Below, in pieces: positions 48,100 to 54,129 of a stretch of DNA of 64,000 nucleotides. The DNA is taken from positions 1 through 64,000 of the forward strand of contig NZ_BAJW01000009.1 in the NCBI RefSeq assembly GCF_000613905.1, in the 5' to 3' direction. Source of the DNA: Acetobacter persici JCM 25330 (GTDB lineage Bacteria > Pseudomonadota > Alphaproteobacteria > Acetobacterales > Acetobacteraceae). Under the pieces are notes generated by a model, which saw only the letters and a program-made list of their open reading frames with translations, had not been told where the DNA came from and did no database searches. The stretch's first letter is position 1. Every line of letters begins with the position of its first letter. Both the position numbers and the translations under genes were made by a program.

Positions 48100-48420
48100 A
48101 TGGAAACTGTCACGCGTGCCTCTCTGGTCGAACAGATCTATCAGCAGGTTGGGCTGTCCCGTAAGGAATCGGCTGTCCTGCTGGAAGATATTCTGGAAAC
48201 GGTCATGCTTGCGCTGGAGCGCGGCGAAAGCGTCAAGATCAGCGGTTTTGGTACTTTTTCCGTAAGGCAAAAAGGCCAGCGCTGCGGACGTAATCCAAAA
48301 ACGGGAGAGGAAGTGCCGATTCTTCCGCGTTCCGTTCTGGTTTTCCGCCCGAGTCAGTTGCTGCGTGCGGCTATTAACCACGAGCCGCTTGAGGGTGGCG
48401 AGGCATATGACGATGAGTGA
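48100..48420 (+). CDS. ihfA: Integration host factor subunit alpha
   Basis: 106 residues. DNA-bending HU/IHF family: [40 protein letters not shown] and [20 protein letters not shown] with the beta-arm Pro. Overlaps the MerR gene by 14 bases. The beta subunit gene is at 53.7 kb in this window. Confidence 0.95.
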
Positions 48421-49270
48421 CACCGACCAGCTTCCCTCCATAATCGACTCTTCCGGCCTGCCGGATGATGAAAATGGTGTGCAGACCCGCACGGAAAAAG
48501 GTCCGCTCGCGTTCCGCACCATTAGCGAAGTCGCAGATGAACTCCATGTGCCGCAGCATGTTCTGCGATTTTGGGAAACACGGTTTGAGCAGGTTCGCCC
48601 GCTGAAGCGCGGTGGTGGCCGGCGCTATTATCGTCCGGCGGATGTGGACCTCCTGCGCCATATTTCCGATCTTCTTTATGCTAAGGGCTACACGGTAAAA
48701 GGTGTGCAGCGCCTGTTGCGTGAAGGCGCGGTGGAAACTGACGCTGCACCACAAAATCCTGTTGTGACGGAGACTGTCGCTGACGTGATCCCTCACGAAC
48801 CAGCAGCCCCAACATCCGAGGGTGCGCAGGAGGATGCATCATCTGCGGCAGAGTCGGCAGAAAATACGACCGTCGTTGAAAATTTTGCTTCTGCGGATGT
48901 TTTAAAAGAGCAGCCTGCTGATGCTGATGCTGATGCTGATGCTGATGCTGATGCTGATGCTGATGCTGATGCTGATGCTGATGCTGATGCTGATGTCGGC
49001 GGCGTAGAAGGTGCCATCGGTCAGCTTCATCACTCCGCCGCTCCTCAACAGGAAACGCAAATTGTGCTGGATCAGCCGGATGAGGTTGCTTTCTCGCAGG
49101 ATAATGCTGTTGAGGCTGCACCTGCACCTGCACCTGCACCTGCACCTGCACCGGAAACCGGGTCTGCCGAGGTTGTTCGTCGGCTGGAAATGCGGAATGT
49201 ACGCCTGAGAAATGATCTTGCGGATATTCTTGTAGAACTGGAAGCGTTTCGGGCCCGCATTACGGCGTGA
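48407..49270 (+). CDS. MerR-family regulator with repetitive linker
   Basis: 287 residues. Winged-helix MerR domain at about 37-110 ([53 protein letters not shown]). A long low-complexity acidic linker follows with 13 Ala-Asp pairs and later six Ala-Pro pairs, then a C-terminal coiled segment [20 protein letters not shown]. It lies after ihfA and before tRNA-Pro, a conserved alphaproteobacterial order. Ligand unknown; no Cys-based metal site is visible. ATG 48413 is an equally good start. Confidence 0.88.
48917..48994 (+). repeat. Perfect hexanucleotide tandem repeat (GCTGAT)13
   Basis: Thirteen uninterrupted copies of GCTGAT, 78 bases, coding (Ala-Asp)13 in the merR linker. Unit length is a multiple of three, so copy-number changes keep the frame. 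Confidence 0.98.
49118..49153 (+). repeat. Hexanucleotide tandem repeat (GCACCT)5 GCACCG
   Basis: Six six-base units, 36 bases, coding (Ala-Pro)6 near the C-terminal segment of the same MerR protein. The last unit differs by one silent base. Confidence 0.96.
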
Positions 49271-50787: not shown

Positions 50788-52338
50788 ATGCTCAAAAATT
50801 TTCTTACTGTTGGCGGCTGGACCATGCTCAGCCGTATCCTTGGTCTGGTGCGGGATCAGCTTCTGGCAGCCTTTATGGGTGCGGGCGCGTTGCAGGACGC
50901 CTATCAGGTGGCGTTCCGGTTGCCGAACATGTTTCGGCGGCTGTTTGGCGAGGGAGCCTTCAATGCCGCCTTCGTCCCGCTGTTTTCGTCCGTCCTGACG
51001 AAGGAAGGGGAGGATGAAGCCCGGACGTTTGCGCGCCGCGCTCTGGGCGTCATGCTGGTCTGGCTGCTCTTTCTGTGTGTGGTGGGAGAGATTTTCATGC
51101 CGCAGGTCTTGCGGCTGATTGCCCCCGGCTTTTCGCAGGCGGGTGAGCGGTATGCGCTGGCCGTCAGCCTCAGCCGGATTACCTTTCCGTATCTGGTGCT
51201 GATCTGCGCGGCGGCTCTGGTTGCCGGTGTGCTCAACGGGCTGCATCGCTTTGGCATCGCCGCGGCTGCGTATCTGGCCTTTAATGTGGTCGGGATTGCC
51301 GCCATCCTGTTTGCCTCGTCCTTTTTGCCGAATGTGGCCTATGCCGCAGCATGGGGGGTGACGGCCTCTGGCGTGGTGCAGCTTGGGCTGCTGCTGTGGG
51401 CAGCGCATCGTGCAAATTTCGGGCTGATGCCGCTGCGGCCTGCTCTGACGCCCCGCATCCGTCTGCTTGTGCGCCGCATGGTGCCGGGACTGGTGGGGAG
51501 CGGGGTTGGGCAGATTAACCTCACCGTAGATACAATCATCGGCACGCTCCTTCCTTCGGGCAGTGTTTCGCTGATGTATTTTGCGGACCGGATCAACCAG
51601 TTGCCTCTGGGTGTGCTGGGTGCCGCAGCGGGGACAACCCTGCTGCCAGTGCTGACGCGCCATCTGGCCGCCGGTGAGCATGATGCCGCACATTCCGCCC
51701 AGAACCGGGCCATGAGTTACGTTCTGCTTCTCACGCTGCCTGCGGTGGCCGGATTACTGGTGCTGGCGGGGCCGATCATGATTGTCCTGTTTGGCCACGG
51801 GTCTTTTACCGAGCGTGATGCGCTTCTGTCAGCGCAGGCTTTGCGGGCCTATGCGATCGGCCTTCCGGCATTTGTGCTGGTAAAAGTCTTTTCCCCCGCT
51901 TTCTTTGCCCGGGGCGATACCCGTACGCCAGTGTATGTCGGCATTGGTATTCTGGTGCTGAATTTTCTCCTTAATCTGCTTTTCATGAAGCCTCTGGCCC
52001 ATATGGGGCCACCGCTGGCCAGCAGTCTGGCGGCGTGTGTCAATGTGGCGTGTCTGGCACTTCTACTCATGCGTCGTGAGGCGTTGCGGGTTTCCGGAAT
52101 GGAGCAGATCAGAATGGTCAAGACGGCCTGCGCGGCTGGTCTCATGGGGCTGGTGCTGGTCGGGGTTCAGGCTGTTCTGGTGTTTCCTGCCGGGCTGATT
52201 CTGCGTGGTCTCTGGCTGAGTGGCATGGTGGGGCTGGGGGCTGTTCTGTACGGTGTGTTCCTGCATCTGTCGGGCATCATGAATGGGGCGGATATTCTGG
52301 CGCGTGTGCAGCGCCGTCTGCAAAAACGCCGGAGCTGA
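50788..52338 (+). CDS. murJ: Lipid II flippase MurJ
   Basis: 516 residues, about 14 hydrophobic helices (MOP superfamily), moves lipid II across the inner membrane for peptidoglycan synthesis. ILGLVRDQLLAAFMGAGALQ, AFRLPNMFRRLFGEGAFNAA, LIAPGFSQAG and PFVLVKVFSPAFFARGDTRTP-type helix 11-12 loop are characteristic. Followed 19 bases later by the UdgX-type gene. Confidence 0.95.
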   Translation: MLKNFLTVGGWTMLSRILGLVRDQLLAAFMGAGALQDAYQVAFRLPNMFRRLFGEGAFNAAFVPLFSSVLTKEGEDEARTFARRALGVMLVWLLFLCVVGEIFMPQVLRLIAPGFSQAGERYALAVSLSRITFPYLVLICAAALVAGVLNGLHRFGIAAAAYLAFNVVGIAAILFASSFLPNVAYAAAWGVTASGVVQLGLLLWAAHRANFGLMPLRPALTPRIRLLVRRMVPGLVGSGVGQINLTVDTIIGTLLPSGSVSLMYFADRINQLPLGVLGAAAGTTLLPVLTRHLAAGEHDAAHSAQNRAMSYVLLLTLPAVAGLLVLAGPIMIVLFGHGSFTERDALLSAQALRAYAIGLPAFVLVKVFSPAFFARGDTRTPVYVGIGILVLNFLLNLLFMKPLAHMGPPLASSLAACVNVACLALLLMRREALRVSGMEQIRMVKTACAAGLMGLVLVGVQAVLVFPAGLILRGLWLSGMVGLGAVLYGVFLHLSGIMNGADILARVQRRLQKRRS

Positions 52339-52357: not shown

Positions 52358-53626
52358 ATGACAGAGATTGTTCTGGCGCATCAGGTTGATCTGCAAACAT
52401 GGCGGCAGGCGGCGCGGCACTATGCTCTGGCCGGTGTGCCGCCGGAGGCACTGTCCTGGCGTGTTGCCCAGTCTTCTGAAGATATGCCGCAGGTTTTTCA
52501 GGCCTCTGCGTCTGCACAGGCAGGCTCTCAGGCTGTTCTGCACCTGCCGCGCAGGCTTGTGGAATGGATTCTTCTGGGGCTTCAGTGCGCACAGGCTGAG
52601 AGGTTTGACTTACTTTATCGTCTGGTGTTCCGCGTAGCGCAGGAAAATCTGGATCTGGCAACCGCTTTGGATGATCCGGACGTGTGCAGAGTTATTCAGC
52701 TTGTGGAGGCCGTTAAAGCGGAAACCAGGCGTTTCCGGCTTGAATTTGCGCAGATATTTGCAGACTCCGCCCGGACCGTCTGGAAGACGACGCCTGCTGC
52801 GTATGTGGTGGAAGGGAACGCCGCGTATTGCATGGCGCGGTACGCCCACCCGTGGGAGATCCGCACCCCGTATCGCAGCATGAAGTGGGACGGTAAGACG
52901 CTCTGGTTCGGTGCATCTGCTGCCGACACGACTTCTGAACCGCCGGGCGGATGGCAGCAGGCCGGCCACGGTCTGTGGCAGGACTGGCCCCGTACGGTTC
53001 TGGCCCCGGACAGGGCAGAGGTTGAACAGACAGCGTCACTGGAGAGGCTGGGCGCGGAAGCCATGGATTGCCGGGCCTGTGCGCTCTGGCGTCCGGCCTC
53101 CCGCACTGTTTTTGGAGAGGGAGCCTCCTCAGCGCGTGTGATGCTGGTGGGCGAGCAGCCGGGGGATCAGGAGGATCTGGCGGGGCGACCGTTCGTGGGG
53201 CCTGCCGGGCAGGTGCTGGAGCGCGCGCTGGAGGCGGCCGGGTTAAGCCGGAGCACGGTTTACGTTACCAATGCGGTCAAGCATTTTCGTTTTACATGGC
53301 GCAATGGCCGGCGGCTGCACCAGAAGCCGGAGCAGGACAACGTGCAGGCCTGCCAGATGTGGCTGGATGCGGAGCGACGGCTGGTCAGGCCAGCCTTGAT
53401 TGTCATGATGGGTGTTACCGCGGCACAAAGCTTGCTGCATCGACCGGTGACGATTTCTCGTGAGCGGTCCCGTATTTTCCCGTTGAGTGACGGCAGTCAG
53501 GGACTGGTGACCGTCCATCCGTCCTATCTGCTGCGTCTGCCCAGTGAGGCGGATAAGGAGCGGGAATATGCGCGTTTTGTAGAAGATCTGAGGTGCGTCA
53601 AAACATTTATGGATAGCCTGCCCTGA
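52358..53626 (+). CDS. DUF4130-UdgX fusion: uracil-DNA glycosylase family protein
   Basis: 422 residues in two domains. Residues 1-195 match the DUF4130 family (VEWILLGLQCAQAERFDLLY, AQENLDLATALDDPDV, PWEIRTPYRSMKWDGKTLWF). Residues 225-422 are a UDG fold of the UdgX group: MDCRACALWRPAS (one of the Fe-S cysteine pairs), MLVGEQPGDQEDLAGRPFVG, YVTNAVKHFRFTWRNGRRLH and VTVHPSYLLRLPS. GRRLHQKP corresponds to the KRRIH loop of mycobacterial UdgX, whose His bonds covalently to DNA at uracil sites. The usual radical-SAM partner is not in this window. Likely role: uracil or damage processing in DNA. Confidence 0.85.
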   Translation: MTEIVLAHQVDLQTWRQAARHYALAGVPPEALSWRVAQSSEDMPQVFQASASAQAGSQAVLHLPRRLVEWILLGLQCAQAERFDLLYRLVFRVAQENLDLATALDDPDVCRVIQLVEAVKAETRRFRLEFAQIFADSARTVWKTTPAAYVVEGNAAYCMARYAHPWEIRTPYRSMKWDGKTLWFGASAADTTSEPPGGWQQAGHGLWQDWPRTVLAPDRAEVEQTASLERLGAEAMDCRACALWRPASRTVFGEGASSARVMLVGEQPGDQEDLAGRPFVGPAGQVLERALEAAGLSRSTVYVTNAVKHFRFTWRNGRRLHQKPEQDNVQACQMWLDAERRLVRPALIVMMGVTAAQSLLHRPVTISRERSRIFPLSDGSQGLVTVHPSYLLRLPSEADKEREYARFVEDLRCVKTFMDSLP

Positions 53627-53674: not shown

Positions 53675-53965
53675 TCAGGCTTTGCGCGCTTTATTGATAC
53701 GGGCGTGCAGATCTTTCCCCGTTTTAAAGAACGGGATGTATTTTTTAGAAACCTGAACCTGCTCACCTGTTTTCGGGTTACGGCCAATGCGCGGGTCGCG
53801 CTCTTTAATGGAAAATGCCCCGAAGCCCCGTAATTCCACCCGATTATTGTCTGCCAGACTCGTAGAAATGGAATCGAAGACAGTATTGACGATCAGGTTG
53901 ATGTCTTTGAGCTGAAGATGCGGATGTTTCTGCATAAGAGCAGCAATAAGTTCGGACTTAGTCAT
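53675..53965 (-). CDS. ihfB: Integration host factor subunit beta
   Basis: 96 residues from ATG 53965, with GGAAGGTGG upstream. MTKSELIAALMQKHPHLQLK, NNRVELRGFGAFSIKERDPR and [20 protein letters not shown] place it with IHF-beta rather than HU. Forms the IHF heterodimer with the ihfA product encoded 5.5 kb away. Confidence 0.92.
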   Translation of the reverse strand: MTKSELIAALMQKHPHLQLKDINLIVNTVFDSISTSLADNNRVELRGFGAFSIKERDPRIGRNPKTGEQVQVSKKYIPFFKTGKDLHARINKARKA

Positions 53966-54129
53966 GGTCCACCTTCCACATTCTGGACAGTCAGCCTGCC
54001 GGACGAACAGGGCGCCAGCGGATCTGCGTAACAAAAAAGGACGCCATATTAAAAAAGTGCGCAACCGGCCCTAAAGCTGGTGCGCACTCCAAAATTCACT
54101 AAGCCGGTATGATCCGTCAATACATAAAT

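Follow-up and report, generated by a model that had tools for sequence, protein, structure and literature searches.

The Acetobacter gene described here encodes a UdgX protein that would cross-link to uracil-containing DNA, fused to an N-terminal half that is a diverged relative of DUF4130. Our preferred reading, to which we give a probability of about 75%, is that the UdgX half is active in cross-linking and that the N-terminal domain, probably inactive, is kept as a structure and uncoupled from the radical-SAM (rSAM) protein. The features concerned lie within the window, by which we mean the whole 64-kb stretch of DNA that was analysed:

50788-52338, plus strand: murJ (TIGR01695, 411.6 bits, cut-off 235.55)
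52358-53626, plus strand: open reading frame for the UdgX protein with the diverged DUF4130-like N-terminal half (P0001), 422 aa plus stop
52358-53014, plus strand: N-terminal half, residues 1-219, decayed DUF4130 (TIGR03915 positions 5-225 of 243, 52.2 bits, cut-off 112.25)
53021-53599, plus strand: UdgX domain, residues 222-414 (TIGR03914, 287.2 bits, cut-off 189.95)
53150-53164, plus strand: motif A, GEQPG, residues 265-269 (E266 and Q267 aligned with E52 and Q53 of MsmUdgX)
53309-53320, plus strand: R-loop, RRLH, residues 318-321 (His321, 53318-53320, aligned with the cross-linking H109 of MsmUdgX)
53516-53536, plus strand: motif B, HPSYLLR, residues 387-393 (H387 and R393 aligned with H178 and R184 of MsmUdgX)
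53675-54064, minus strand: ihfB, convergent to the UdgX gene (NF001222, 135.1 bits, cut-off 115)

An earlier reading of this DNA from its letters (the sequence-only reading) had placed a fusion gene at 52358-53626, with murJ and ihfB as neighbours. The frame does encode 422 residues, and the family models TIGR01695 and NF001222 identify the two neighbours. An alternative ATG at 52283 would give a protein of 447 aa and overlap the end of murJ. The start at 52358, 19 bases after the murJ stop, is preferred because in close relatives (e.g. L019 and L021) the stop-to-stop frame begins only a few codons 5' of the equivalent position. The pattern GTTC-N7-GTTC, which we take to represent an SOS-type box, occurs twice in the 64-kb window and nowhere near the UdgX gene, a number matched by 31 of 100 shuffles. 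Elsewhere in the window, an ORF for a MerR-like regulator (48365-49270) holds two perfect hexamer arrays, TGCTGA x 13.3 (48916-48995) and CTGCAC x 6.2 (49116-49152). These encode Asp-Ala and Ala-Pro runs, and frame-neutral length variation between strains is possible.

The alphaproteobacterial DUF4130-UdgX fusion architecture that the sequence-only reading had singled out is present, but fusions of this kind are common. A scan of genome contigs confirmed at least 579 stretches encoding a relative; the best 80 each align over both halves, and nearly all of them come from Alphaproteobacteria (mainly Sphingomonas, Caulobacter, Brevundimonas, Devosia, Acetobacteraceae and related groups). Among the matches listed, the closest named relative is Acetobacter senegalensis, with 62% identity in its best segment; on the UdgX tree it groups within the genus to which the window belongs. 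The fusions were split by profile score into normal (at least 280; 99 distinct proteins) and diverged (below 230; 54 distinct proteins) classes. L135, at first counted among the diverged proteins, was placed in the normal class because it has the normal C-terminal motif. Two members stay in the diverged class with reservations: L150 may be a frame-broken normal copy, and L024 may be a UdgX with a different N-terminus. The 54 diverged loci, some of them too short to reveal their neighbours, include mucR in 37, ihfB in 36 and murJ in 23, and this recurrence suggests that the gene has long been inherited vertically at a single location.

The C-terminal half belongs to TIGR03914, named in NCBIfam as the UdgX family uracil-DNA binding protein, and its best PDB matches are chains of MsmUdgX, the Mycobacterium smegmatis protein (E about 3e-55). 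The strings GEQPGDQED (residues 265-273) and GRRLHQKP are present as the sequence-only reading had claimed, and its assignment of a histidine to the UdgX position also stands. Both the PDB alignment and our alignment A1 equate E266, Q267, D270, D273, F279 and N305 with E52, Q53, D56, D59, F65 and N91 of MsmUdgX, and K308, R319, H321, H387 and R393 with K94, R107, H109, H178 and R184. R319 and H321 therefore fill the R107 and H109 slots of the R-loop, and other UdgX-specific residues are kept as well. Compared with MsmUdgX, the R-loop lacks two residues, a short form also found in many normal alphaproteobacterial fusions. Motif B fits the consensus HPS(S/A)(L/V)(L/V)R at all positions except for Y in place of S/A, and HPSYLLR and HPSFLLR are frequent in normal alphaproteobacterial fusions. 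With a possible 4Fe-4S cluster in mind, we note that C238, C241 and C332 do not vary in alignment A1. Among the positions conserved in normal rows (49 in all, with three rows from two genomes excluded for their degenerate UDG halves), 44 are kept here; the median for diverged rows is 45 and the minimum 41. All 55 rows initially classed as diverged (54 after the reclassification of L135) carry the cross-linking His together with the Arg two positions ahead of it. In three diverged fusions (L198, L199 and L202) motif A reads GEQAG instead of GEQPG.

The predicted model (45 sequences; mean pLDDT 93.2, pTM 0.89) superposes on MsmUdgX chains at 1.0 to 3.5 Å, with 1.0 Å over 192 columns for the uracil-DNA covalent complex 6ajo_A. 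On these residues and this model, the protein most likely cross-links itself to DNA. Like MsmUdgX, it would excise uracil and then at once bond covalently to the resulting site through His321, aided by Glu266. Passages of two reports (PMC10359453 and PMC10776899) describe the roles of the residues in MsmUdgX, and on the cross-linking that remains after the E52A change these passages disagree.

The N-terminal half is not the ordinary DUF4130 that the sequence-only reading had taken it to be. It scores below the cut-off of TIGR03915 (52.2 bits vs 112.25) as well as that of Pfam PF13566 (20.5 bits vs 27), and keeps only 18 of 51 conserved positions, which marks it as a diverged relative. The 51 positions were chosen for conservation in 95% or more of 100 normal rows, among which one protein occurs twice. 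Across 52 diverged rows the median is 17 of 51 (range 5 to 23); two of the 54 diverged rows, L024 and L211, gave no DUF4130 match. By comparison, for the 21 rSAM-linked DUF4130 copies that lack an in-frame UdgX the median is 47 and the minimum 42, one of them (L066) being a fusion truncated by the locus edge. The conserved HKM, WFEP, FF..RF, FNPAR and EMP..YW..LPE residues are lost from the window protein, and its C-terminal FNPAR..EMP..YW..LPE segment is absent altogether. Since such an absence could reflect the ends of local alignments, the letters were inspected directly, and the absence held. A text search for FNPA, HKM and FEP matched none of the 54 diverged proteins vs 97, 95 and 94 of the 99 normal ones. 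Four EMP, YW or LPE look-alikes among the diverged proteins all lie outside the context of the C-terminal segment. Divergence is graded: the least diverged N-terminal halves, those of L188-L190 (profile scores 225-228), lie between both groups, and L188 exceeds the Pfam DUF4130 cut-off (46.2 bits vs 27) with a match restricted to profile positions 2-92 of 146.

Models of the two forms agree in part. Ahead of residue 195, the order of elements in a normal DUF4130 model (L228; pLDDT 86.6, falling to about 62-76 beyond residue 190) is nearly identical to that in the model of the window protein. Past residue 195 the normal model has four helices, of lower confidence, that are missing from the window protein. 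Foldseek with the normal model returned no match at E <= 0.001, and the DUF4130 sequence profile found none in the PDB up to E = 1. VIA-align with residues 1-195 of the L228 model returned chiefly DHH/RecJ-type proteins, the best at Z 7.1. Models that lack a clear match usually reach a best Z of 7-8 with this tool, which makes the likeness a lead only. To our knowledge DUF4130 has no known activity, and calling the N-terminal half dead is therefore a judgement from lost conservation; the half could act through other residues. Loss of DUF4130 catalysis is nonetheless probable from the sequence.

The N-terminal half is under looser yet continuing constraint than the UdgX half. Compared with genomes G009, G033, G023 and G090, dN/dS is 0.14-0.24 for the N-terminal half and 0.06-0.10 for the UdgX half, and dN in the former is 2.3 to 4.1 times that in the latter; with dS at about 1 or more, the dN/dS values are rough. 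Further comparisons gave 0.22 vs 0.07 (G008) and 0.25 vs 0.13 (G004), and saturation against G001 left no value. Values for DUF4130 copies without UdgX were set aside, as their frames contained non-domain upstream sequence. In a tree of the UdgX half (147 rows, built without six long rows, two diverged and four normal), the normal/diverged label requires four changes, three of them forced by starred branches, so that decay probably occurred more than once and the linkage and co-occurrence counts given below are not independent. The window UdgX belongs to a starred set of 39 rows; every row in this set is diverged, and Acetobacter, Gluconobacter and Gluconacetobacter are among the genera represented.

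The sequence-only reading had described an rSAM protein as the usual companion of DUF4130 and as missing from the window, and was right on both points: no TIGR03916 gene occurs in the 64 kb. The genome-wide search that it proposed did locate a partner, beside a different DUF4130 and not this gene. The single match in the genome lies on another contig (C139:815-2014, minus strand; 568 bits vs a cut-off of 343.5). Next to it, at the contig end, is a separate DUF4130 split over three frames, whose pieces carry HKM, FEP, RFRE, FNPAR, KYWK and LPE; this type of DUF4130 is unbroken in the relatives G009, G033, G023, G090 and G036. A UDG-superfamily gene in the same assembly (C221:29637-30090, L156) is also split, across two frames, so sequencing error in this assembly is possible.

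We asked how the two components are distributed across 140 Acetobacteraceae genomes. The rSAM gene is above cut-off in 56; 55 of these are exactly the 55 with DUF4130 above cut-off, and the remaining one is the present genome with its split copy. UdgX is above cut-off at 78 places in 75 genomes. It is fused to a normal DUF4130 at 48 places, all in rSAM genomes, and accompanied by a diverged or undetected DUF4130 half at 30, none of which adjoins rSAM; the 30 include three short frames with no DUF4130 detected (G198, G167 and G076) and one gene spread over two contigs (G173). Of the 30 genomes with a diverged or undetected half, 21 have no rSAM match and nine have one elsewhere: on the same contig at least 80 kb away in three (G076, G082 and G085), and on another contig in six, where contig breaks limit any judgement of distance. 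The 37 genomes of the same genus comprise 24 with UdgX above cut-off and 18 with rSAM (seven with both, 17 with UdgX only, 11 with rSAM only and two with neither). In one of the rSAM-only genomes, G036, a diverged DUF4130 reaches the end of its contig, and the UdgX of this genome may therefore merely be absent from the assembly. At the level of loci, rSAM is present at 94 of 96 assessable normal fusions vs none of 40 assessable diverged ones. Three normal and 14 diverged loci were too short to judge, and because rSAM-positive loci were counted at any length and rSAM-negative ones only with 3 kb upstream, there is a slight bias towards normal loci.

The reverse case also occurs. In G010 (L235, 3793-5361) and G019 (L236, 3678-5249) the fusion that comes after the rSAM gene has an intact DUF4130 half (48 and 51 of 51 positions, respectively) and a degenerate UDG half (29 and 31 of 49). 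The cross-linking histidine is lost in both, and motifs A and B are altered. The G019 UDG half is still above the Pfam UDG cut-off (44.6 bits vs 24.3), and in both genomes this half is below the UdgX cut-off (178 and 162 bits vs 190). Together with the decayed N-terminal half of the window protein, this indicates that either half can persist when its counterpart no longer works. As DUF4130 is intact in the relatives only alongside rSAM, the two halves look like separable machines.

Could C139 be a contaminant, leaving this organism without any radical-SAM system? The assembly is a draft (236 contigs, 91.45% complete, 1.34% contamination), the C139 DUF4130 is split across frames, and past about 2,050 bases the contig has no match in the stretches compared from G033 and G009. 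Over those 2,050 bases it is nevertheless 89% identical to both genomes, and to G023 it is 85-86% identical over about 4.7 kb. The window locus is 80-86% identical to the same three genomes, and GC content is similar (59.1% for C139 vs 60.0%). C139 is thus closest to the relatives that are also nearest at the window UdgX, which argues against contamination, and we judged this explanation extremely unlikely. Another reading, implied by the wording of the sequence-only reading, is that the fusion is of the ordinary kind, works fully and draws on the C139 rSAM protein in trans, an idea favoured by the presence in the genome of that gene, with a score above its cut-off. Yet this rSAM gene adjoins a DUF4130 of its own with normal motifs, albeit frame-split in the assembly, while the N-terminal half of the window protein scores under the cut-offs of both families and has no C-terminal segment; moreover, the majority of family genomes with such a UdgX (21 of 30) have no rSAM match. 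We therefore regard use in trans as highly unlikely.

A different question is whether the N-terminal half has taken on a new function (DNA binding, regulation of UdgX or recruitment of a partner) and is not a passive remnant. Purifying selection, a confident predicted fold that keeps most of the DUF4130 element order, and the weak DUF4130 match (28.7-60.7 bits) beside UdgX in all 24 genus genomes with UdgX above cut-off are in keeping with re-use. These observations are also compatible with structural support, and the 11 positions conserved at 85% or more across the diverged group form no evident new active-site signature. In G005 (C123:42745-43952, L022 / L051), the diverged DUF4130 and UdgX halves occupy separate frames (329 and 234 aa), through either a frame error or a genuine separation of the fusion. 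Re-use is possible, and we entertain it tentatively.

Under our preferred reading of an active UdgX with a probably inactive N-terminal domain, the N-terminal half would descend from DUF4130 and probably no longer do its job. It would be kept as a folded, constrained domain for support, DNA contact or protein contact, and support or contact is most likely its present role. The rSAM/DUF4130 activity would be a separate machine, encoded here on C139 and absent from most relatives with the decayed form. A broader and more speculative proposal, which we rate as doubtful, is that in acetic acid bacteria an rSAM + DUF4130-UdgX system split into a UdgX with a repurposed N-terminal domain and an rSAM + DUF4130 pair whose UdgX is dead or has been lost. 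In that case the chemistry of rSAM/DUF4130 would not be obligatory for resolving the UdgX cross-link and would not depend on that cross-link, and the orphan N-terminal domain would have a new selected role.

UdgX traps uracil sites irreversibly, and we know of no function assigned to the linked rSAM and DUF4130 proteins. One obvious idea is that these proteins remove or process the UdgX cross-link. Lineages whose UdgX has every catalytic residue and that show no rSAM match, set against those with rSAM + DUF4130 and a degenerate UdgX, make this idea directly testable, and the comparison highlights the DUF4130 residues kept only alongside rSAM. The useful result is this wider pattern, in which rSAM goes with a normal DUF4130 and UdgX forms a separable component.

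The DUF4130-UdgX fusion as such is already known, and the decayed N-terminal half is a variant of it and not a new kind of system. The family names rSAM_link_UDG and SAM_7_link_chp already record the linkage, and a 2013 paper groups DUF4130 with uracil-DNA glycosylases and with radical-SAM proteins of the SplB-like type (PMC3765255). The decayed state of DUF4130 beside UdgX was not found described in the open-licence papers searched. With MsmUdgX (PDB 6AIL, 6AJO and 6IOD) the Acetobacter protein shares motif A GEQPG and the RRxH loop; it differs in its fusion to an N-terminal half, in the R-loop shortened by two residues, in G for K105 and in Y for S/A in motif B. The rSAM-linked fusion of Alphaproteobacteria (TIGR03916 + TIGR03915-TIGR03914) has the same domain order and a homologous N-terminal half, whereas the Acetobacter protein lacks the normal DUF4130 motifs and the C-terminal segment and does not adjoin rSAM. 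The rSAM-linked DUF4130 without UdgX (G009, G033 and the split C139 copy) comes from the same genus and belongs to the DUF4130 family; in G009 and G033 it keeps the conserved motifs (47 of 51 positions) and, unlike the window protein, has no UdgX half in frame.
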